From an archaeon (GTDB lineage Archaea; Nanobdellota; Nanobdellia; SCGC-AAA011-G17; GW2011-AR20), in assembly GCA_002688355.1 (NCBI GenBank), contig NZCT01000013.1, forward strand, positions 1 through 37,593: DNA of 37,593 nt. Reading direction: 5' to 3'. The notes under the pieces were generated by a model. It was not told where the DNA came from and ran no database searches. It saw only the letters and a program-made list of their open reading frames with translations. Below are positions 11,455-31,035 of this stretch, piece after piece. The position numbers and the translations under genes are program-made. Numbering within the stretch: position 1 is the stretch's first letter; each line of letters starts with the position of its first letter.

Positions 11455-11697
11455 ATGACAAATGAAAGATTAACACAACCAGAAATAGAAAAAATCGCTG
11501 ATGAATTATATTTGGAATTGTTAGAAAAATGGACTTCTGAAATAGATCTTCCAGGTAAAATTAGACTAATTACTACAACAAGACAAGCTTATGATATTTA
11601 TATGTTTGATGCAAGAGATGCAGTGAATCTTATGGAATCAAAATACAAATCAGAATTAACTGATATGAACTATTTGAGACCGCCTGTATACCACTAA
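11455..11697 (+). CDS. Hypothetical small protein
   Basis: An 80-residue, mainly helical, soluble protein (TQPEIEKIADELYLELLEKW, then TTRQAYDIYMFDARDAVNLM) with a short Pro-Tyr tail. No family is recognised. It has its own TATA-like box and no clear SD. Its last four bases overlap the 3' end of pheT on the other strand, so the two transcripts converge. Position after the pilus-like operon hints at, but does not prove, a related role. Confidence 0.65.
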   Translation: MTNERLTQPEIEKIADELYLELLEKWTSEIDLPGKIRLITTTRQAYDIYMFDARDAVNLMESKYKSELTDMNYLRPPVYH

Positions 11698-13340
11698 ATC
11701 AACTTACTTAACTCATCTAAATTAATTTCAAATCCAGAAATAGGCATATCTAAATGGAAGTTAGTAATAACTTCTGGTTTAACTTCTCCAATAAAACCAA
11801 TTTTCTTATTATTAACAAATATTGAACCACTTCTTCCATCTATAAAAGTTCCATTATCTCTATCTTCAACAGAAGCTTCTAATCCTAAAGAACTAATCAA
11901 AGAATCTAAAAATTGTTTAACTTCAGTATAATCAGCTTTAGCATGACAACTTGCTAAAGACAATTTATTAACTTCTTCAATTCCTGTCTCAGATTTACTA
12001 TCCTTAACAAATACTCTACCAATTTCAAATATTTTTTGAGGATAATCATTATGTCTATTTCTTTCTAAAACTTCTAATAAACTAGGTAATAACAAATTAC
12101 GTAAAACATTATATTCAGAAGTTAAAGCATTCTCTAATTCAATTATTTTATTATTAACTAACATTCTCTTATTCAAAACTTCTTTATTACTAATGGAAAA
12201 ACTATTAACTTCTATAAATCCAAAACCAATTAATACATTTGATAATTTCGATTTAAATATCTCAAAACTATTTTCCTCAGCAATAGTGGATATCTTCGGA
12301 ATTTCAACTTTAAAATTATTATAACCATAAGCTATTGCAATATCTTCAGCAATATCTATTTGATGTAAAATGTCAGTTCTATATGAAGGAATTAACACAT
12401 TTTTATTTTTATAATCAAATCCCATTTTTTCTAAATAACTTTTAATTTTACTTTCATTTAGATCTAAACCCAACATTTTATTCATGTATTTCAAATCAAT
12501 TTTTAACTTTTCAGGACTTAAATCAGGACTTACAATTTTCTTACTCCCATAAACTAAATCCATACTATAAATATCTCCTCCAATATCACTTAAAGCAGTT
12601 ACTAAAATATTCAAACATTTTTTACAAACATCAAAATCATGTCCGCTAACTTCAACAAAAACATCTCTTGTCCCCGTCGATACGCGACCAGCATATTCTG
12701 AATTAATCACTGGCGTTAAAGATAAAATATTATTATTTGCATCAATAAAAACAGGATACTTATCGTATTTTTCTAATAAATAACCATATTCCTTTCCAGT
12801 TGGGTGTTTCTCTAATATTTCAGTAACGTTTAACTCTTTTTTAAAATCTAATGGTCTAAAGTTAATATCTTTTTTATCCATAGCTTTAAATCTTATAGGG
12901 GTTCTAATATTTTCAAAAGGATAAACTCCAATAGCACATTTCTTTCTATTTCTTCCATACGTCACGTGTAATTTCTCTTGTATTTGAATAACTTCTCTAA
13001 TTTTCTCTTCATCAAATTTCAAATTCTTTACAATAGCTACAGCAGTATAAGGTCTTATGTCTTTTAAATTTTTATCAACAATAACTTCCTCATTACTTTT
13101 CTTAATATTATACTTACGTAAACCTTTTCTAACACCGAAAAATGATCCTAGCGCACGACCAAAACCAACCTCACTCATCATATCGGGTCTATTAGGAAAT
13201 ATCTCAACAGTTATTTCTTCTTTATAAATATGTTCTAAATCAACACCGATCATTGGCATTTTCTCCTTCAAAATCTTATCAGAATACTTTCTACCAATAT
13301 GCTTCAATACTTCTTTTTTGTTTAGTTTTACTGTTGGCAT
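11694..13340 (-). CDS. pheT: Phenylalanyl-tRNA synthetase beta subunit (archaeal type)
   Basis: The 548-residue beta subunit of the alpha2-beta2 PheRS, responsible for tRNA binding and editing. It is the short archaeal/eukaryotic form without the bacterial N-terminal EMAP-like domain. It opens MPTVKLNKKEVLKHIG and includes EIFPNRPDMMSEVGFGRAL, the B3/B4 editing region (VINSEYAGRVSTGTRDVFVE), a B5 domain (SYRTDILHQIDIAEDIAIAYGY) and a class II-like domain (LRNLLLPSLLEVLERN, KIFEIGRVF), ending in the FIGEVKPEVI segment. Length and order are normal. In many archaea it follows pheS directly; here about 4.7 kb of unrelated genes separate the two, on the same strand. Confidence 0.96.
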   Translation of the reverse strand: MPTVKLNKKEVLKHIGRKYSDKILKEKMPMIGVDLEHIYKEEITVEIFPNRPDMMSEVGFGRALGSFFGVRKGLRKYNIKKSNEEVIVDKNLKDIRPYTAVAIVKNLKFDEEKIREVIQIQEKLHVTYGRNRKKCAIGVYPFENIRTPIRFKAMDKKDINFRPLDFKKELNVTEILEKHPTGKEYGYLLEKYDKYPVFIDANNNILSLTPVINSEYAGRVSTGTRDVFVEVSGHDFDVCKKCLNILVTALSDIGGDIYSMDLVYGSKKIVSPDLSPEKLKIDLKYMNKMLGLDLNESKIKSYLEKMGFDYKNKNVLIPSYRTDILHQIDIAEDIAIAYGYNNFKVEIPKISTIAEENSFEIFKSKLSNVLIGFGFIEVNSFSISNKEVLNKRMLVNNKIIELENALTSEYNVLRNLLLPSLLEVLERNRHNDYPQKIFEIGRVFVKDSKSETGIEEVNKLSLASCHAKADYTEVKQFLDSLISSLGLEASVEDRDNGTFIDGRSGSIFVNNKKIGFIGEVKPEVITNFHLDMPISGFEINLDELSKLI

Positions 13341-13416
13341 TTTATTTCATCTTAATATAATAATTAAACGTAATATTAATACTTATATTAAACCTTTTTG
13401 ATTTTAAAGGGATAAA

Positions 13417-16251
13417 TTATTTTATCATTCCTATTTTCTTTAATTTATTTACATTATCTTTAGATAGTTTACCTTCATGATAAAATCTCTTTTGTCTTTT
13501 AATCCATATGGCTAGATTATGACTTTTTTTATTTTTTTTAGTATATTTTGGTTCTTGTTTATATTTTTTCTTAAATGTAACATAATTATTATAAATATTA
13601 TTCCATTTACTTTCGAGAGCATTCCACGTAAATCCAATTTTATTAAACTTGTTTAATTTATCATTAGAAAGCTTTCCTTTTCTTCGCAATCCTTTTTGAT
13701 TACTACACCATATTCCTAATCTCTTTTCTAATTTATTACTTGATTTATAAGAAGGATCTCTGCAGTATTTCTTTTTGAATGCAACATAGTCATTATAAGA
13801 TCGCTCCCATACATCTTCAACAGGGTTCCAAACAAAACCAGCTTTGTTTAACTTAAATATTTTATCCTTAGACAGCTTATTTTTTCTAAAATATATTCTT
13901 TGATCTATAGACCATTGTCCTAACCTACTTTCTTCTTTGTTTTTAGAGTGGGTAGAGGGCTCCTCTTTATGTTTTTCTTTAAAAGAAATATAATCTTTAT
14001 AATATCTATTCCAAATATTTTCAAAAGGGTTCAAATCAAAATTAATTTCTTTAAGTTTCTTTGCCCTATATATGGGGAGCCTATTTTGTTTATATTTTTT
14101 CCTATTAGTTCCAACCCAACCTGCAAGGCTTCTTTCTTCTTTCTTCTTGGAATGACTAAAAGGTTCTCTTTTATGTTCTTCTTTAAATGCTACATACTGA
14201 CCAAACCAATCATCCCAAGATTGTCCAACAACATCTAAAGTTCTTACACTAATCCTATCAACAAAATCTTTAATGTTAATATCTTTTGGTAAGATACTAT
14301 CTTCTAAATCAAAACGATTTGCTAAGTCTCTCCTTAGTCTAGCTTTCTCAGAATTATCTCTTGCCTTCAAACTACCAGGTCTTTTCTTTCCCTTTAAAAA
14401 ACTCAATTTTTCAATAATATGATTTAATTCTTCATCTTGTTCTTTCATAGCTTGTATAACTTTCCAAACTTGATCGAAAGCTGAGCTATGTATTATCTCA
14501 TCTATATCTTCATTACCTTTAATAAAAATAGGAATAACTATGTAACCATATTCTTTACCTTCTTTTTTCCTTATAGCCCTACCAGTTGCTTGAACAATAT
14601 CTATTAAGTTTCTTTTAGGATCTACAAAAAAGATACCATCGATAAGAGGAACGTCAACACCTTCAGTTAAACAACGAGCATTAGTAACTAGAGATTTTTT
14701 TTGTGATATAAATTCATCTAATATCTCTTTTCTTTTACTTGATTTAAAACTACCAGAAACATGATAGGATTTAATATCTAAAACTTTTCTTCCTTTTCTA
14801 CTTAATAACTTTTGAAGATTCTTTAAAATTTTTTGAAAATCTTTTGCCCCTTTAACGGATGAATGAAATGATACCACATGATTAGCAACCCTCATAGTCT
14901 TAGTTAGTGCTACAGCCTTTGCTACTTCATCTATCGTTACCTCTCTTTCTAAAACACTTGTCCAAAATCTTCTGTCTATTAATTCCTTAGTTTTATCATC
15001 TCTTACAACTATAATCTTAATCTTATAATCACTTAATAATTTCCTATCTATAGCTTCTCTAAATTTAATATTGTCAAATTCCTTACCATATATGCTTTCA
15101 TCATCCATAGAACATAATAAGATATTTTCTTCTTCAGCTAGTTTTTTCAAACGAAGAGCATACAATTTAGGAGTAGCTGTCATAAATAATTTCTTTTTAG
15201 TTGGCGTATCTAAACACCTAGTAAATAATTTATTTGATTTACTTGCTGTTCTATGTGCTTCATCAAATATTCCTAAATCAAATTTGAAACCCTTTAATGA
15301 TTTCATTATGTTTAATACAACTGGAGCACTTTGATACGTTGAGAAAATAATTCTATGTTTATCTTTATTTTTTAGATATTTCTCTACTTCTTCTCCATCT
15401 GTCGTCACAGGAACTCCTAATTCAGTAACATCTATATCTATCTCATCTCTATCTCCCACAACACTCTTATCTGAACATACACATTTAATAGAGAAATCTT
15501 GATTCTTATGTTTAGCCCATTCCTCTAAAGTTTGTTTTAATAAAGCTAAACTTGGAACATAAACAATTGTATTTTTTGCATTTAGTTTTTCTTTTATCCA
15601 CAGAGCTGTTAAGGTTTTACCTGTACCACAGGCATGAATCATTTTACCTTTATCATTATTCTTAAAATATTTTATTGCATTATCTATAGCTCTAGCTTGA
15701 TGTTCTCTTGGTTTGTGAATTACTTTTTGTATTTGTTGTCCAGCTAAATGTTTTCTTATTGCATCAAAATCTTCTTCCGTTAATTCTAGAAAATTATATC
15801 TTAAGATTGAGGAAAAACGAGATAGTTCTTCATGTGGATGTAATACTTCATTTATATTTCCTATAACTAACATGAAATCGGCTTTCTCACTTGAACTTCT
15901 AAATGTGCTTAGTTCTCTCCACTTAACTGTATCCGCTCCTCTGAACTTTACTTGTATAGTCCATATCTCATCACCTTCAGTTAAAGCAACTAAATCAATT
16001 CCATAATCTTGTCTAGATTTTAGATTAAGTTTTCTTAATATCTCTGGTTTAATTTTATCAAACAAATTGACTGATTTAAATTTTTGATTATATCTTGTTG
16101 GATAAATAATTTCTAGATATGCCTGAACAAATAACTCAAACAAATCACCTTTATATTTTTCAGGAGTTACTTGAAACAGTCTTCTCTCTAGTTCTTTAAA
16201 GTTCTTTACATCTTGCATAAACTTTAACAAGTCTTCCTTAACGTATCTCAT
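13417..16251 (-). CDS. Restriction-like nuclease plus DEAH-type SF2 helicase with four helicase-associated repeats
   Basis: A 944-residue multidomain protein. Residues about 15-170 look like an Mrr-type PD-(D/E)XK domain: YGIDLVA supplies the Asp and IWTIQVKF the QxK. From about 180 an SF2 helicase core follows: motif I CGTGKT (near 207), DEAH (near 330), TATP motif III, and QATGRAIRKK motif VI (near 555). After a linker come four tandem repeats of about 65 residues, each with a W-x(3-5)-Y-x(2)-Y/F-VxFK start, a LG-x-W or LAxW centre and a GKLS-x-(D/E)K end; these are helicase-associated (HA) domains, usually taken to bind nucleic acid. Such fusions (COG4889-like) occur in mobile elements and restriction or defence loci. 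It lies between pheS and pheT, downstream of ParB-like and LAGLIDADG genes on the same strand. Biochemical role is inferred. Confidence 0.88.
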   Translation of the reverse strand: MRYVKEDLLKFMQDVKNFKELERRLFQVTPEKYKGDLFELFVQAYLEIIYPTRYNQKFKSVNLFDKIKPEILRKLNLKSRQDYGIDLVALTEGDEIWTIQVKFRGADTVKWRELSTFRSSSEKADFMLVIGNINEVLHPHEELSRFSSILRYNFLELTEEDFDAIRKHLAGQQIQKVIHKPREHQARAIDNAIKYFKNNDKGKMIHACGTGKTLTALWIKEKLNAKNTIVYVPSLALLKQTLEEWAKHKNQDFSIKCVCSDKSVVGDRDEIDIDVTELGVPVTTDGEEVEKYLKNKDKHRIIFSTYQSAPVVLNIMKSLKGFKFDLGIFDEAHRTASKSNKLFTRCLDTPTKKKLFMTATPKLYALRLKKLAEEENILLCSMDDESIYGKEFDNIKFREAIDRKLLSDYKIKIIVVRDDKTKELIDRRFWTSVLEREVTIDEVAKAVALTKTMRVANHVVSFHSSVKGAKDFQKILKNLQKLLSRKGRKVLDIKSYHVSGSFKSSKRKEILDEFISQKKSLVTNARCLTEGVDVPLIDGIFFVDPKRNLIDIVQATGRAIRKKEGKEYGYIVIPIFIKGNEDIDEIIHSSAFDQVWKVIQAMKEQDEELNHIIEKLSFLKGKKRPGSLKARDNSEKARLRRDLANRFDLEDSILPKDINIKDFVDRISVRTLDVVGQSWDDWFGQYVAFKEEHKREPFSHSKKKEERSLAGWVGTNRKKYKQNRLPIYRAKKLKEINFDLNPFENIWNRYYKDYISFKEKHKEEPSTHSKNKEESRLGQWSIDQRIYFRKNKLSKDKIFKLNKAGFVWNPVEDVWERSYNDYVAFKKKYCRDPSYKSSNKLEKRLGIWCSNQKGLRRKGKLSNDKLNKFNKIGFTWNALESKWNNIYNNYVTFKKKYKQEPKYTKKNKKSHNLAIWIKRQKRFYHEGKLSKDNVNKLKKIGMIK
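13420..14220 (-). repeat. Four tandem HA-domain repeats inside the helicase gene
   Basis: The C-terminal part of the helicase encodes four related units of roughly 65 codons. Equivalent positions read WFGQYVAFKEEHKREP, YKDYISFKEKHKEEP, YNDYVAFKKKYCRDP and YNNYVTFKKKYKQEP, and each unit ends near a GKLS/NKLS-type helix. The similarity shows tandem duplication with divergence. Confidence 0.75.
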
Positions 16252-16345
16252 TATTAATCCTCAACAAATATACTGATAGTTTAGAATTTAAACCTAACTA
16301 ATTGTTGTTCTGTAACTTAAACTGTTGATAAGTAAGATTAAAAGT

Positions 16346-16702
16346 TTAAATCAAATTAATAACCTCAGCTTTCATTTTCCTTATTTTTAAATGTTTAAAA
16401 ACTAGAACTCTATTATAACCATCAGTTGTCACAAATAGATCATTATTTATCTCAAATAAGGTAGGGGGACACTCATAATTAAGATCATATTCCTTATCTT
16501 CTAACCATTTTTTGATTTTAAAAAATTTAGATGGGATCCAATTATCTATGCGATGACAGGATTCAGTTCCCTTAATTCTATCAACATTAACACACTTAAT
16601 TATACTTTTCTTTTGTTCTAGCTTATTCCAACCTGGATAAGCTTCATCCAAAGTATTCCAACTCTTAGGTTTATACTTAGAAGGTAATTTTTTAATAGTC
16701 AT
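16346..16702 (-). CDS. ParB/sulfiredoxin-like-fold small protein
   Basis: A 118-residue basic protein. The C-terminal part reads LFEINNDLFVTTDGYNRVLVFKHLKIRKMKAEVI, matching the core of ParB-like domains, where a D-G-x-x-R motif sits before a helix and a final AEVI-type strand. The more N-terminal part (ESCHRIDNWIPSKFFKIKKWL) is not a classic ParB box, and no helix-turn-helix DNA-binding domain follows, so it is not a chromosome partition ParB. Stand-alone ParB-like folds occur as nucleases or NTPases in mobile and defence loci. It starts 12 nt after the LAGLIDADG gene stop and is probably co-transcribed with it, followed 94 nt later by the helicase. Fold assignment moderately confident, function unknown. 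Confidence 0.72.
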   Translation of the reverse strand: MTIKKLPSKYKPKSWNTLDEAYPGWNKLEQKKSIIKCVNVDRIKGTESCHRIDNWIPSKFFKIKKWLEDKEYDLNYECPPTLFEINNDLFVTTDGYNRVLVFKHLKIRKMKAEVINLI

Positions 16703-16714
16703 TTTATTTTCAAC

Positions 16715-17938
16715 TTATCTTAATTTATAAAGAGTTTCACTCCACCAATATTTTCCATCTGTAATTTTTACTCCCTCTTTTCTTATCAAACCTGATTTTT
16801 CTAACAAATGAAGATATTTATATATTGTTGTATCTGCAACTTTAAGATTATCTTTTCTTAAACCCATTACAATATCTTTAATCTTACTTTTTTTAGTATT
16901 GTAAATATTTCTATAAACATCCCTAATCTGAATTTTTGATCTATGATGTTTTGGAAATAAATATTCTAATTGTTCTATACTATAAGATTTATTATCTAAA
17001 AAGAATTTCAACCTGTTATATTTCCAAGTTCCTTTTTCAAAATAATCTAACCATTTTCTTAAATATTCTTTTTTCCTTCCACTTCTTGATTCTATTTGCC
17101 AGCTTTTCTTTTTCTTATTATATTTTTTATTAACAGAAATTCCATCTAGCGATAATATTTCATAAATATTATCTATTAGCTGTTTGCTCATAGATGTTAG
17201 TGCTACCATTCCACTAGCCTTAACTCCTCCATCAAAATCCATAACACCTTTAGCAAAAGCTTTTCTAATTTTAAAATTACTCTTTTTTACTAATTCTGGT
17301 TCTTTTGCAATATCAAACTTCTTCCCAGTTGGTATATCAAATATTTTTTCAAAATATCTTCCAATTATTTTACTATTAAACCAACAGATCCAGTATTTAT
17401 TATTAAATCTTACTTGATATCCTACTATGGCCTTTTTAGAGAAAATATATTTAATATGTTCAGAATATCTTCGAATAATATCTTCTCTACCATCACAAAT
17501 TTTTAATCTGTATTCGTTATTATTCTTTTGTAAATAACCATCTGCCATATGAGCACCTATTATGCTTGCTAATTTTTCATCTAGCTTCTTGACAGCTGTT
17601 ATTCCTTGATTGCTTCTGTCAAATTTAGATATGAATAACTTAAAATTTTTAATTATTTTATTTTTCAAATTAGGATTTGTTAGCTTAATCATTTCTATTA
17701 TTATTGGGAGTGGCAAAATTAAGTTATGTCTAGAATTCTTTAACTTTATCAAATGCTTTACAACTGTACTAAAACCAGCATTAAGATTATTACTTATCTC
17801 CTTGCCTATTAAGTTTTGTTGTCTTTTTTTAAGTAATTTTTTATATTCTTTCCTAAGCAATTCTGAGTTAAACTTCACCCAAATCCATCCTTTTGGTTTA
17901 TCTTCTTTTGAATTCAATTTAAATAGATCAAATTTCAT
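16715..17938 (-). CDS. LAGLIDADG homing-endonuclease-like protein with N- and C-terminal helix-turn-helix regions
   Basis: A 407-residue protein with two LAGLIDADG helices: ASIIGAHMADGYL (near 124-136) and FAKGVMDFDGGV (near 227-238). Both keep the acidic residue that binds catalytic metal, so activity is plausible. The region before them (IGKEISNNLNAGFSTVVKHLIKL, about 44-66) looks like a helix-turn-helix, and the last 80 residues (DIVMGLRKDNLKVADTTIYKYLHLLEKSGLIRKEG) look like a winged helix. It is not embedded in another gene and shows no intein splicing motifs, so it is free-standing. It could be a mobile homing endonuclease or, by analogy with WhiA-type proteins, a regulator derived from one. 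A TATA-like CTTATAAGTA lies about 25-30 nt before the ATG. It heads the three-gene insert between pheS and pheT. Confidence 0.85.
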   Translation of the reverse strand: MKFDLFKLNSKEDKPKGWIWVKFNSELLRKEYKKLLKKRQQNLIGKEISNNLNAGFSTVVKHLIKLKNSRHNLILPLPIIIEMIKLTNPNLKNKIIKNFKLFISKFDRSNQGITAVKKLDEKLASIIGAHMADGYLQKNNNEYRLKICDGREDIIRRYSEHIKYIFSKKAIVGYQVRFNNKYWICWFNSKIIGRYFEKIFDIPTGKKFDIAKEPELVKKSNFKIRKAFAKGVMDFDGGVKASGMVALTSMSKQLIDNIYEILSLDGISVNKKYNKKKKSWQIESRSGRKKEYLRKWLDYFEKGTWKYNRLKFFLDNKSYSIEQLEYLFPKHHRSKIQIRDVYRNIYNTKKSKIKDIVMGLRKDNLKVADTTIYKYLHLLEKSGLIRKEGVKITDGKYWWSETLYKLR

Positions 17939-17964
17939 ATCTATACAACATCTTTTTTACTTAT

Positions 17965-17974
17965 AAGTGCTGCG
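17965..17974 (-). promoter_or_regulatory. TATA-like promoter of the LAGLIDADG gene
   Basis: The minus strand carries CTTATAAGT about 25-30 nt upstream of the LAGLIDADG ATG, consistent with a leaderless archaeal promoter. It lies directly beside a GC-rich block at 17968-17996. Confidence 0.45.
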
Positions 17975-17996
17975 CGGGTGTCTTGCACATGCAACA
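17968..17996. other. GC-rich block with a short perfect inverted repeat at the edge of the insert
   Basis: In the 96-nt spacer between the LAGLIDADG start and the end of pheS, about 29 nt (GTGCTGCGCGGG and what follows) are strikingly richer in G and C than their surroundings. They contain TTGCA-CA-TGCAA, an inverted repeat, and a GTGC/GCAC pair. It could be an operator for the insert, a recognition or scar site, or part of a small RNA. It is not a recognisable tRNA. Confidence 0.35.
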
Positions 17997-18034
17997 TTTG
18001 TAAGGAAAATATATATTAAAGAATATAAGAAATC

Positions 18035-19552
18035 TTACCTCATCCAAGATTTTATCTCTCTAATTTTTTTCAAATCATTTCCATAAAGATCTCTTAAATC
18101 ATGAATTTTATAATAATCCATGATAATTCTTCCTAATCCTAAACCCCAAGCTAAAACAGGAACATCTCTTCCAAGTAATGGAACAACAACTTCTGGTCTA
18201 AGTATTCCACTTCCACCTAACTCAATCCATTGTTTCTTTAGTGGGTGATATACTTCTATTTCGCAGCTACAAGAAACGTAAGGAAAAAACGCTGGTCTAA
18301 ATCTAATTTTATCAAAACCCATCTTATTAAAAAATTCTTTCAAATATCCAAGTAAATGTCTAAAATTAACATCTTCATCTATTACAATACCCTCTGTCTG
18401 TTCAAACTCAAAAGAATGTTTCCAATCAACAGTCTCATTTCTAAAAACTTTACCAACAGAGAAAAATTTAGCAGGTAAATCTTTACTTTTTAAAGAAGCA
18501 ATTGTCTTAGCACTTAAACAAGTTGTATGTGTTCTTAAAACATTTCTCTTAGACTCTTCTTCCTTCCAAGAGTATCCCCAACCTTTACTTCCATTAATTC
18601 CTTTTTCATGAGCTTGTTTAACATTATTTACAATTTTCTTATTACTTAATTTTCCTTTTATTGGATCTTTAATGTAAAAAGTATCATGCATCTCTCTAGC
18701 AGGATGATCCTGAGGTGTAAATAATGAATCAAAATTCCAAAACCCAGTTTGCACAAAACTTCCAGTCATTTCCTTAAATCCTAAGTCCAACCAAATTCTC
18801 TTAATGTATGAAATTGCATCATTAACAAAATGTTTTCTCCCATAATTTACCCTAGGAACCTCAGATTTTAGGTCATATCTTCTAAAATTTTTACCTTTCC
18901 ATCCTCCTCTTAACAACATCTCATGTGTAAGAGTTTCAACTAAATCATCTTTAATCTTAACATCTTTTAATTTTAAACCTAATTGTGTTAATGTAACTAA
19001 TCTTGTTTTTTCTATTTCTGTTTTTAAAATTTCTTTTCTCTTAAGTAAAAATTCAAAAGCAGATTTCTCTTGCTCACTTAATTTCTTTATGTCTATAGGC
19101 AACTTCTTTAATAATAATTCTTCAGCAAATTCCTTATTTAATAATTTTTTACCATTATTTGTTAATTTTATTTGTTTTCCTAATGTTATTGAATTACTTC
19201 TTTTCAATATTCCTAAAGAAATACTAGTCTCATTTTGGTCTAAGTCTCCTTTATCTTTAATATCTTCTAAAGAAAAACTACCTTCCCTTAAAACGTTTAA
19301 AAATCTTCTTTCTGGTAAACCTTTCTTCAAATATTTCTTGCCATTAGTATCAATCTTAATTACTTCTCTTTCATTTCTCTTAACTAAGATTATATCTTTA
19401 TTCTGTAACCATTGCAATGCTCTTAGAACTTCAATTTCCTGTAAATCACTTTTTTTAACTATTGAACTTGAATCTATAGAATCCTCTAAAATTGGTAAAA
19501 CTTTCCTCTCTAAAGGATGTAAACTCTGAATTAATTTTTCAATATCTTTCAT
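18035..19552 (-). CDS. pheS: Phenylalanyl-tRNA synthetase alpha subunit (archaeal type)
   Basis: The catalytic alpha subunit of PheRS. The first about 200 residues hold small winged-helix modules typical of archaeal and eukaryotic PheS (EVLRALQWLQNKDIILVKRN and similar). The class II catalytic core follows: FTPQDHPAREMHDTF, THTTCLSAKT, motif 2 FRNETVDWKHSFEFEQTEG, and motif 3 LGLGRIIMDYY. All signatures look intact. The track begins at a TTG (19573); the ATG at 19552 is preferred, with a TTTTTTAA run about 26 nt before it fitting a leaderless start. It lies upstream of the three-gene insert and pheT, all on the minus strand. Confidence 0.96.
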   Translation of the reverse strand: MKDIEKLIQSLHPLERKVLPILEDSIDSSSIVKKSDLQEIEVLRALQWLQNKDIILVKRNEREVIKIDTNGKKYLKKGLPERRFLNVLREGSFSLEDIKDKGDLDQNETSISLGILKRSNSITLGKQIKLTNNGKKLLNKEFAEELLLKKLPIDIKKLSEQEKSAFEFLLKRKEILKTEIEKTRLVTLTQLGLKLKDVKIKDDLVETLTHEMLLRGGWKGKNFRRYDLKSEVPRVNYGRKHFVNDAISYIKRIWLDLGFKEMTGSFVQTGFWNFDSLFTPQDHPAREMHDTFYIKDPIKGKLSNKKIVNNVKQAHEKGINGSKGWGYSWKEEESKRNVLRTHTTCLSAKTIASLKSKDLPAKFFSVGKVFRNETVDWKHSFEFEQTEGIVIDEDVNFRHLLGYLKEFFNKMGFDKIRFRPAFFPYVSCSCEIEVYHPLKKQWIELGGSGILRPEVVVPLLGRDVPVLAWGLGLGRIIMDYYKIHDLRDLYGNDLKKIREIKSWMR

Positions 19553-19586
19553 TAGAATTTTAAATAAACTCAATACTTAAAAAAGC

Positions 19587-28649: not shown

Positions 28650-29180
28650 CTAAAGCATTTTCCCTAAGAATTCAGAACCTATTTCTACAAATACTTTCGT
28701 AAGTTTAGCAACATCATGAGTAGCCCAATCTTTGTCTCTAAACAAACATGCATAAGTTTCGACAAAAGCAGCATCAAAGGTATAGGGTAATGTAGCTACA
28801 AATGCCAACATCTTAACAAGTTTCTTTTTATCATCTTGAAAATGGTATTTCATAGTTTTATATAAACAAAAACCTGCTATAGCTAAAGTTAGAGGACTAA
28901 GATCATTATGACTTACTTCATGTTGAAGAGTACCTACAAAACTATGGGCATAGGTATCATAACCATAATGGCCCATATTTCGATCTAAATAAATTCTTCC
29001 TTCATTAATGAAAGGCACATGAGTATGAGAACCTTCATCAGATAAAATAACTTCATGCTCAACCCCATAAATATCAGTTATAGATTTTCCATCAAAATCA
29101 AGATTAATATCATTTCTCTTAATATGATATTTCATAGATTCAATTATTCTTTCGTCTAAATTTTCTCTGTTAGAATTCAT
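28650..29180 (-). CDS. Putative HEXXH metallopeptidase-like protein
   Basis: A 176-residue protein whose central helix reads GTLQHEVSHND, giving an HEXXH zinc-binding motif. A later FVETYAC could supply the third ligand Glu. The surrounding segments PLTLAIAGFCLY and KMLAFVATLPYTFDAAFV are hydrophobic and may associate with a membrane. The family is not recognised with certainty, and a motif alone does not prove protease activity. The track start is a TTG (29189); the ATG at 29180 is preferred because it begins one base after the stop of the nucleotidyltransferase-like gene, with which it forms an operon. Confidence 0.7.
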   Translation of the reverse strand: MNSNRENLDERIIESMKYHIKRNDINLDFDGKSITDIYGVEHEVILSDEGSHTHVPFINEGRIYLDRNMGHYGYDTYAHSFVGTLQHEVSHNDLSPLTLAIAGFCLYKTMKYHFQDDKKKLVKMLAFVATLPYTFDAAFVETYACLFRDKDWATHDVAKLTKVFVEIGSEFLGKML

Positions 29181-29181
29181 T

Positions 29182-31035
29182 TTAAACAATTATCTCGAAT
29201 TCAGCACCAAAAATATCTTCTAATTCTTTATAGAAATCATTACTTATAGAAATTCTTTTAGTACTTTGATTTTTCATAGAAACTTCTTCTAATTCCTTTA
29301 AACTAGATTTTTCAATAGAAGTAAATTGTTTATTTTTAATTACTGTTTTCTCAACTTGATCTTTAGATTTTAAATCTTTTATAATAAATACAGTATCATC
29401 AAAAACATAAACTTCTCCTAATTTATTAGAATCATATTTAATTCTTAATTTAGCATTTTCTAGTTGAATATTTTGTTTTCTTTGGATTAATTCCATCATA
29501 ACTTTCAAGTATTCTCTAGCTTCTCTCTTAATCTTTTCACTTTCCGTCTTACTCAACTTTTGTTTTCCTAAAGAATTTACTTTTTTAAATATTTCATAAT
29601 ACTTAACAGGAATATCTCCTTTAGAACTTAATTTTTTTAACTCTGCTTCAGGATCTTTAGTATCATTTACATTAAATATACTTAATACATCTCTAGTTAT
29701 TGCAACACATGCGTTGTAAATATCTTTAGAACCTTCACCTTCTTTCTTCTTATCAATTTCTTTAAATAATTTCTTTATCTTTTCTAAATATTCTTTAGTT
29801 TCTTTAACTAATTTATCAATTTCTTTACCTTCAATTTCTTTTAATTTACCATGTTCAATCTTTTTGTACAAAGTTCTTACGTTTTCTAAATGTTTAACAT
29901 ATTTCTCTTCTAATAATTTTTCTTTCTTAACAAAAATCTCTCTTAGTAAATCAATTGTTTCTAGTGGCGTCGGTGGATTAATTCCATATGCCATTAACAC
30001 AGCTTGTGCTGGATTTAAAACAGCATAGTATAAATCTTCAGCAACAACACTTATCATTTTACCATTAACTCTTTCTAATAGTTTTTCACCAATTTCCATT
30101 TGCTGATCAATAGCTTCAGGACTTGGTTTAATTCTACCCATTTTTAATAACAATCTCCAAGGATTAAATACTCCTCTATCAAATAAAGGAACTCCATCTC
30201 TTAGGAATGTAAATATAACAGGATTAGCATCTTTTACAGAATCCCAAAAATCAGTTAAAATATATGTTTGAATGTGAAATTCTTTATTCACCCCAGTTAT
30301 ATTTCTAGCTTCAAATCCTTGACTTATAATTATAGATCTTAATTTATCTTTTAATTCATATCTTGACATTCTTTTTACATCAGTATCATCTACAATAATG
30401 TAAACATCAATATCATGACTTTTTTTATCTCCTCTAAATAATGAGCCAGCTGCAACATAACTTACAATATACTTATCAAATTTCTTTAGCACCATTGTCT
30501 TATGAACTTCAGAAATTTTAATAGCTCCTAACATTTCCTTAGGATCGTAAATTGGAGCAGACATCGCAATTACTTGTAAAATATCATACTTTCCATCGTA
30601 ACAACTTTCTTTTAACTCTGATAAAACCATAGTTTCAGTTACAATATCTTTATCAACATCTTTACCTATTTTTTCAATAATTTTACCTAATTTTTCTTTT
30701 AATTCTAATTTAGACATTTTCTTACTATCAGAATCGTCAACTAAAATAAAAGCATTAATCTCATTAGGATTTTCTTTTTCATCTTTAGATTCTTCTTTCT
30801 TAACTTCAGGAGGTAAATTTTCTCCAGCTCTTTCTGGGAATCTTTGATTAAGAAATTTTTTAGGGGGCATTAAAGCAATTCCTATAATATATTCATTAAA
30901 TTCTTTTAGAACTTTATCTTTAAATGTATCTAATTTCTTTTTAATTTTATCAAACTTTTCCTTTAATTCAGGGGGTACTTCTTTTGGTAAGTTTCCTGGT
31001 TGAGGATTTTTAGTTTGTTTTTTATCTTCTGCCAT
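29182..31035 (-). CDS. Nucleotidyltransferase-like protein with duplicated fold and helical C-terminal region
   Basis: A 617-residue protein. A pol-beta-type nucleotidyltransferase signature, GSLFRGDKKSHDIDVYIIVDD (near 205-225), has the GS helix and the D-x-D that binds metal. A related but incomplete unit precedes it: NAFILVDDSDSKKMSKLELKEKLGKII mirrors IDVYIIVDDTDVKRMSRYELKDKLRSII, so the fold was duplicated, and the first copy lacks the GS motif. The region EDLYYAVLNPAQAVLMAYGINPPTP (about 340-370) resembles HEPN-like helices. The rest is Lys/Glu-rich coiled coil with a strand-rich tail. Substrate unknown; tRNA, protein and antibiotic modification are all possible. It is co-transcribed with an HEXXH protein and starts near a TATA-like AGTTTAAG. 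Confidence 0.75.
   Translation of the reverse strand: MAEDKKQTKNPQPGNLPKEVPPELKEKFDKIKKKLDTFKDKVLKEFNEYIIGIALMPPKKFLNQRFPERAGENLPPEVKKEESKDEKENPNEINAFILVDDSDSKKMSKLELKEKLGKIIEKIGKDVDKDIVTETMVLSELKESCYDGKYDILQVIAMSAPIYDPKEMLGAIKISEVHKTMVLKKFDKYIVSYVAAGSLFRGDKKSHDIDVYIIVDDTDVKRMSRYELKDKLRSIIISQGFEARNITGVNKEFHIQTYILTDFWDSVKDANPVIFTFLRDGVPLFDRGVFNPWRLLLKMGRIKPSPEAIDQQMEIGEKLLERVNGKMISVVAEDLYYAVLNPAQAVLMAYGINPPTPLETIDLLREIFVKKEKLLEEKYVKHLENVRTLYKKIEHGKLKEIEGKEIDKLVKETKEYLEKIKKLFKEIDKKKEGEGSKDIYNACVAITRDVLSIFNVNDTKDPEAELKKLSSKGDIPVKYYEIFKKVNSLGKQKLSKTESEKIKREAREYLKVMMELIQRKQNIQLENAKLRIKYDSNKLGEVYVFDDTVFIIKDLKSKDQVEKTVIKNKQFTSIEKSSLKELEEVSMKNQSTKRISISNDFYKELEDIFGAEFEIIV

Follow-up and report, generated by a model that had tools for sequence, protein, structure and literature searches.

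A free-standing LAGLIDADG gene with two companion genes separates pheS from pheT in a small archaeal genome, probably through intronless homing

The genes for the two subunits of phenylalanyl-tRNA synthetase are held apart in the genome of a tiny symbiotic-type archaeon by an insertion of three genes: one for a free-standing LAGLIDADG protein, one for a 118-aa protein, and one for a nuclease-helicase. This segment was probably inserted by the LAGLIDADG homing endonuclease through intronless homing, the two remaining genes being passengers. In cells that do not have its gene, the endonuclease would cleave pheS or pheT, or DNA close to them, at a conserved site, and homologous-recombination repair from an occupied allele would then copy the endonuclease gene and everything else between the homologous flanks. 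Members of its family settle at conserved gene ends, in this case between pheS and pheT, and the 118-aa and nuclease-helicase genes would have entered between the endonuclease gene and pheT. The open-access literature yielded no paper on free-standing LAGLIDADG genes at gene ends across DPANN archaea and none on pheS-pheT as an insertion hotspot. The arrangement suggests how accessory genes may come to lodge inside an essential operon, by a route that is concrete and testable. The LAGLIDADG family comes with many natural target sites, in occupied and empty alleles, and target recognition by a stand-alone enzyme is thus directly testable.

Insertion of three genes between pheS and pheT

The window, i.e., the whole 37,593-nt stretch analyzed here, is a single contig of 37.6 kb from a genome of 0.96 Mb. 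pheS (alpha subunit; positions 18035 to 19573; PF01409, E = 6.7e-80) forms the left border of the insert and pheT (beta subunit; 11694 to 13340; PF17759, E = 4.2e-44, and PF03484) the right border, and both are complete open reading frames (ORFs). The gap between them is exactly 13341 to 18034 (4694 bp). It holds, all on the minus strand like pheS and pheT, the LAGLIDADG gene (16715 to 17938), the 118-aa gene (16346 to 16702), which begins 12 bp after the LAGLIDADG stop, and, 94 bp further on, the gene for the 944-aa nuclease-helicase (13417 to 16251). ORFs, Pfam matches, and gap length thus confirmed the statement of an earlier note on this DNA that about 4.7 kb with three co-directional genes parts pheS from pheT. 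The remaining spacer before pheT (13341 to 13416, minus strand) contains a TATA-like element (TTTAATATAA, at about 13383 to 13392) that, judged by its sequence, may be pheT's own promoter. Base composition did not set the insert apart (GC of 0.27 versus 0.28 for the window). A candidate remnant of the pheS 3′ end just before pheT (GATGAAATAAA) was rejected, as its similarity to the window's own pheS did not exceed the shuffled expectation. Elsewhere in the window, two overlapping ORFs of 179 and 617 aa (28650 to 31035, minus strand) had no Pfam match at an E value of 1e-10.

To place this junction in context, pheT and pheS were located in 103 genomes of the order, all genomes in the comparison being treated as metagenome-type assemblies, and 87 cases had both genes on one contig. 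The gap was ≤30 bp in 60 of these 87, 31 to 149 bp in 8, and at least 150 bp in 19. In its commonest form, the junction consists of the pheS stop codon, one base, and the pheT ATG (typically TAA-A-ATG). Since 60 of the 87 linked junctions are ≤30 bp long, the segment in the window is an insertion. The earlier note had read it in the same way, and the empty versions found in most of the order and within the window's own family (G001 and G006) support that reading. The note had also named an observation that would speak against it, namely, pheS and pheT lying apart throughout the clade without these genes. This applies in part: the junction is opened in most of the family, but by other genes. 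G001 and G006 have the uninterrupted form. The nearest genome, G004, is also disrupted, with pheS and pheT on different contigs. The bin of the window contains a second, uninterrupted pheS-pheT (G000:C28) that is closest to that of G020, a member of another family (73%); it is either a contaminant contig or a transferred copy.

A LAGLIDADG protein whose relatives sit at the ends of conserved genes

The 407-aa protein has an HTH-like N terminus, two LAGLIDADG motifs (..IIGAHMADG.. and ..GVMDFDGG..) that both keep their acidic residues, and a C-terminal winged-helix-like tail. Asp133 of the first motif is invariant among 10 aligned members. A sequence search by itself gave a weak match to I-DmoI. 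A structure predicted from a four-sequence alignment with moderate confidence (pLDDT of 66) matched I-DmoI, PI-PfuI, and archaeal intein endonucleases in Foldseek (E values of 6e-7 to 1e-4). The protein is therefore predicted to have the LAGLIDADG fold. A putative archaeal promoter lies at 17959 to 17980 (minus strand), with a TATA-like sequence (CTTATAAG) some 20 bp ahead of the ATG, and a similar block is found in G072 (alignment GCACTTATAAGTAAAAA / GCATTTATAAATAAAAA). The pheS and pheT ORFs are whole and there is no Rfam match, to a group I intron or any other family, in or near the segment; the gene thus lies outside any intron or intein, and a group I intron origin for the segment was rejected for lack of an Rfam match. 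None of the three insert proteins had a relative on the viral contigs searched.

The sole close relative of the 407-aa protein (54% identical) is likewise encoded between pheS and pheT, in G072, a genome of another family. Only G000 (the window genome) and G072 have a LAGLIDADG gene of this kind at pheST; they represent the occupied allele of the site, and the uninterrupted majority of linked junctions represents the empty one. pheS and pheT are themselves only 55% and 51% identical between the two genomes, a distance over which a selfish gene is unlikely to have been passed on by slow vertical descent. The G072 LAGLIDADG gene has its stop codon inside pheT, with a 13-bp overlap. Two intervening genes keep the window copy from any such overlap. 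The G072 pheS-pheT gap also contains a diversity-generating retroelement (L062, 7042 to 9173, minus strand) comprising a variable protein, a template/variable repeat pair, and a reverse transcriptase (PF00078); the repeats differ by mismatches (9 by count) that all fall at template adenines.

More distant relatives (about 25 to 35% identity) were mapped together with their neighbors. In 10 of 10 mapped relatives with a readable end, G072 included, the LAGLIDADG ORF ends 8 to 30 bp inside a conserved gene. The overlap falls at the 5′ end of pheT or gatE, or at the 3′ end of nreA (three genomes in three families) or of genes for a Hef-like helicase, a Ygr210-like GTPase, an aminoacyl-tRNA synthetase, ilvD, or an MGMT-like protein. 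By a crude gene caller run on the neighboring sequence, 29 of 187 ordinary gene ends (15.5%) overlap their neighbor by that much, which puts the chance of 10 in 10 near 1e-8. The earlier note's suggestion of homing activity thus gains support for the LAGLIDADG gene from the 54% identical relative at the same junction and from the ten relatives at conserved gene ends.

In three loci, a relative of the LAGLIDADG gene lies directly upstream of an EF-2 gene that is broken within its P loop (..AHID / HGKTT..): L091 (2410 to 2475, plus strand), L094 (about 1390 to 1340, minus strand), and L095 (about 1365 to 1325, minus strand). The interruptions are roughly 30 to 37 nt long, break the frame, form a hairpin where folded, and resemble BHB mini-introns; none of the three had an Rfam match. 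This arrangement of an interrupted EF-2 gene beside a LAGLIDADG gene recalls collaborative homing (PMC6083498). Pilus-type ATPase genes are split by long in-frame segments in G002:C5, G006:C36, G008:C27, and G062:C20; the G006 frame contains a LAGLIDADG match, consistent with inteins.

Frequent insertions between pheS and pheT within the family

Among the 12 linked pheS-pheT junctions in the window's family, 9 are opened by at least 150 bp, and their cargo is mostly unrelated: an NTase-HEPN-like pair (G007), an AbrB-PIN pair (G009), an ORF6N protein with a hydrolase (G003), an AlaX-like gene (G012), an 11-kb set with a nucleotidyltransferase pair at its end (G002), and others. The same kind of ORF6N protein as in G003 occupies the pheS-pheT junction of G020, in another family. 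In G012 (L024, 3614 to 5114), where the AlaX-like gene fills the gap, pheS has frame breaks.

One tight junction, T2SSE-T2SSF, served as the control. Within the family it is opened in 1 of 11 cases versus 9 of 12 for pheS-pheT (Fisher P = 0.003, the genomes not being independent), and pheS-pheT is an insertion hotspot there. Order-wide, the excess is weak (19 of 87 versus 4 of 43; P = 0.09, the genomes again not being independent), and the contents of some gaps (f13 and f18) are small clade-specific genes, not mobile ones. T2SSE-T2SSF, itself a pilus junction, is opened by 1.2 to 2.1 kb in G007:C29, G068:C19, and G079:C6.

Alternatively, pheS-pheT might simply tolerate insertions in a family whose genomes rearrange fast, the LAGLIDADG gene being one arrival among many that settled there at random and its endonuclease being irrelevant to its placement. 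The weak order-wide excess speaks for this, as does the lack of a LAGLIDADG gene in most of the 19 opened junctions. We consider this explanation unlikely. It does not account for the shared location of the gene in two families, for the overlap of all ten relatives with conserved gene ends, or for the difference between pheS-pheT and the control junction within the family.

A possible extension of homing attributes the hotspot to endonuclease breaks at pheS-pheT or close by. Repair would have captured passing DNA and removed the target, and unrelated cargo would accumulate as immunity. The concentration of mostly unrelated cargo at one place fits this proposal, as do the ends of the inserts. 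In six genomes, the stop codon of the last cargo ORF lies within the first codons of pheT. G004 has a near-identical but degraded copy of the first 123 bp of pheT (118 identities), followed by cargo and then by intact pheT, and the G066 insert has on its borders a junction repeat that is missing in G065, of the same genus. The stops inside pheT and the repeats in G004 and G066 indicate that the junction underwent repair or recombination. However, flanking repeats are clearly above chance in these two genomes only, and most opened junctions have no visible endonuclease. Further, free-standing enzymes often cleave at a distance of hundreds of base pairs, as can happen in T4 (PMC2988022), and the target therefore need not be the junction itself. 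That breaks made the hotspot is thus improbable on present evidence. The same low probability attaches to the widest form of the idea, in which a DPANN homing endonuclease family repeatedly cuts the borders of essential genes and breaks at pheS-pheT take up genes of toxin-antitoxin, retroelement, and restriction-like kinds; every such event would destroy the target, immunize the operon, and shelter the cargo from easy deletion.

The nuclease-helicase and 118-aa genes as probable passengers

The 944-aa protein combines an Mrr-type nuclease with an SF2 helicase and four HA repeats (Mrr_cat_2, ResIII, Helicase_C, and HA) and may be a defense-type enzyme; proteins similar to it carry DEAD/DEAH helicase annotation on bacterial plasmids. 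Two relatives were found in the genomes searched, in G024 (39%) and G331 (55%), neither at pheST and neither with a 118-aa gene beside it. The G024 gene is preceded by a DNA methylase, and its locus has no LAGLIDADG match. In G331 (L114, 6705 to 13329), the relative has eight HA repeats and is flanked by two LAGLIDADG genes, one of which overlaps the start of the RNase HII gene. They are of another type than the window's, and the arrangement might point to a looser partnership between endonuclease and helicase.

The 118-aa protein could not be assigned to a family. The ParB-like fold that the earlier note saw in it found no backing: there was no Pfam match even at an E value of 10 and nothing relevant in NCBIfam or PDB, and an AlphaFold prediction from the single sequence was uninformative (pLDDT of 34). 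No convincing relative was found in 371 genomes of the phylum, and none in the phages and plasmids searched. Weak matches in G298 and G134 contain stops, and one in G452 is at about chance level over the 371 genomes; all three were rejected.

The earlier note had also proposed a compact three-component system, but none of the other loci and genomes examined has the three genes together. That they form one functional unit, e.g., a defense or anti-element system in which endonuclease, nuclease-helicase, and 118-aa protein act together, is very unlikely: their shared direction and close spacing, the LAGLIDADG genes around the G331 helicase, and the resemblance of the nuclease-helicase to Type ISP restriction translocases favor it, but no second genome among those searched has the trio, the G072 LAGLIDADG gene at the same junction has neither the 118-aa gene nor the helicase and has the retroelement instead, the G024 helicase keeps other company, and the 118-aa protein is an orphan. 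We infer that intronless homing brought in the endonuclease gene and that the helicase and 118-aa genes are its passengers.

Comparison with known systems

The 944-aa protein shares an N-terminal Mrr-type nuclease and an SF2 translocase with the Type ISP enzymes LlaBIII and LlaGI (E = 5e-70). In contrast to them, it carries four HA repeats where they have their methylase and target-recognition half; it corresponds to the nuclease-translocase half only and is not a Type ISP restriction-modification enzyme.

The LAGLIDADG protein has the same predicted fold as the endonucleases of archaeal group I and rRNA introns (I-DmoI; PMC6125680), which occur in the same archaeal groups, but its gene lies outside an intron or intein. 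Like phage HEG-islands (PMC10448857), the insert joins an endonuclease gene to passenger genes in a putative homing region. Those islands have at least two flanking endonucleases and essential genes, whereas the insert has a single LAGLIDADG gene and accessory cargo and is not an HEG-island.

SegA-G and MobA-E of T4-like phages (PMC2988022, PMC6083498) are likewise stand-alone genes between conserved genes, present or absent among relatives. In T4, such an endonuclease cuts a conserved site in relatives without it (PMC2988022), and by analogy, the archaeal gene would be expected to spread by cutting the empty allele and copying the flanks. The phage enzymes are GIY-YIG or HNH endonucleases, whereas the enzyme described here has a predicted LAGLIDADG fold and a presumed cleavage activity and is encoded on an archaeal chromosome, and the 3′ end of its gene overlaps the neighboring gene in all mapped relatives.
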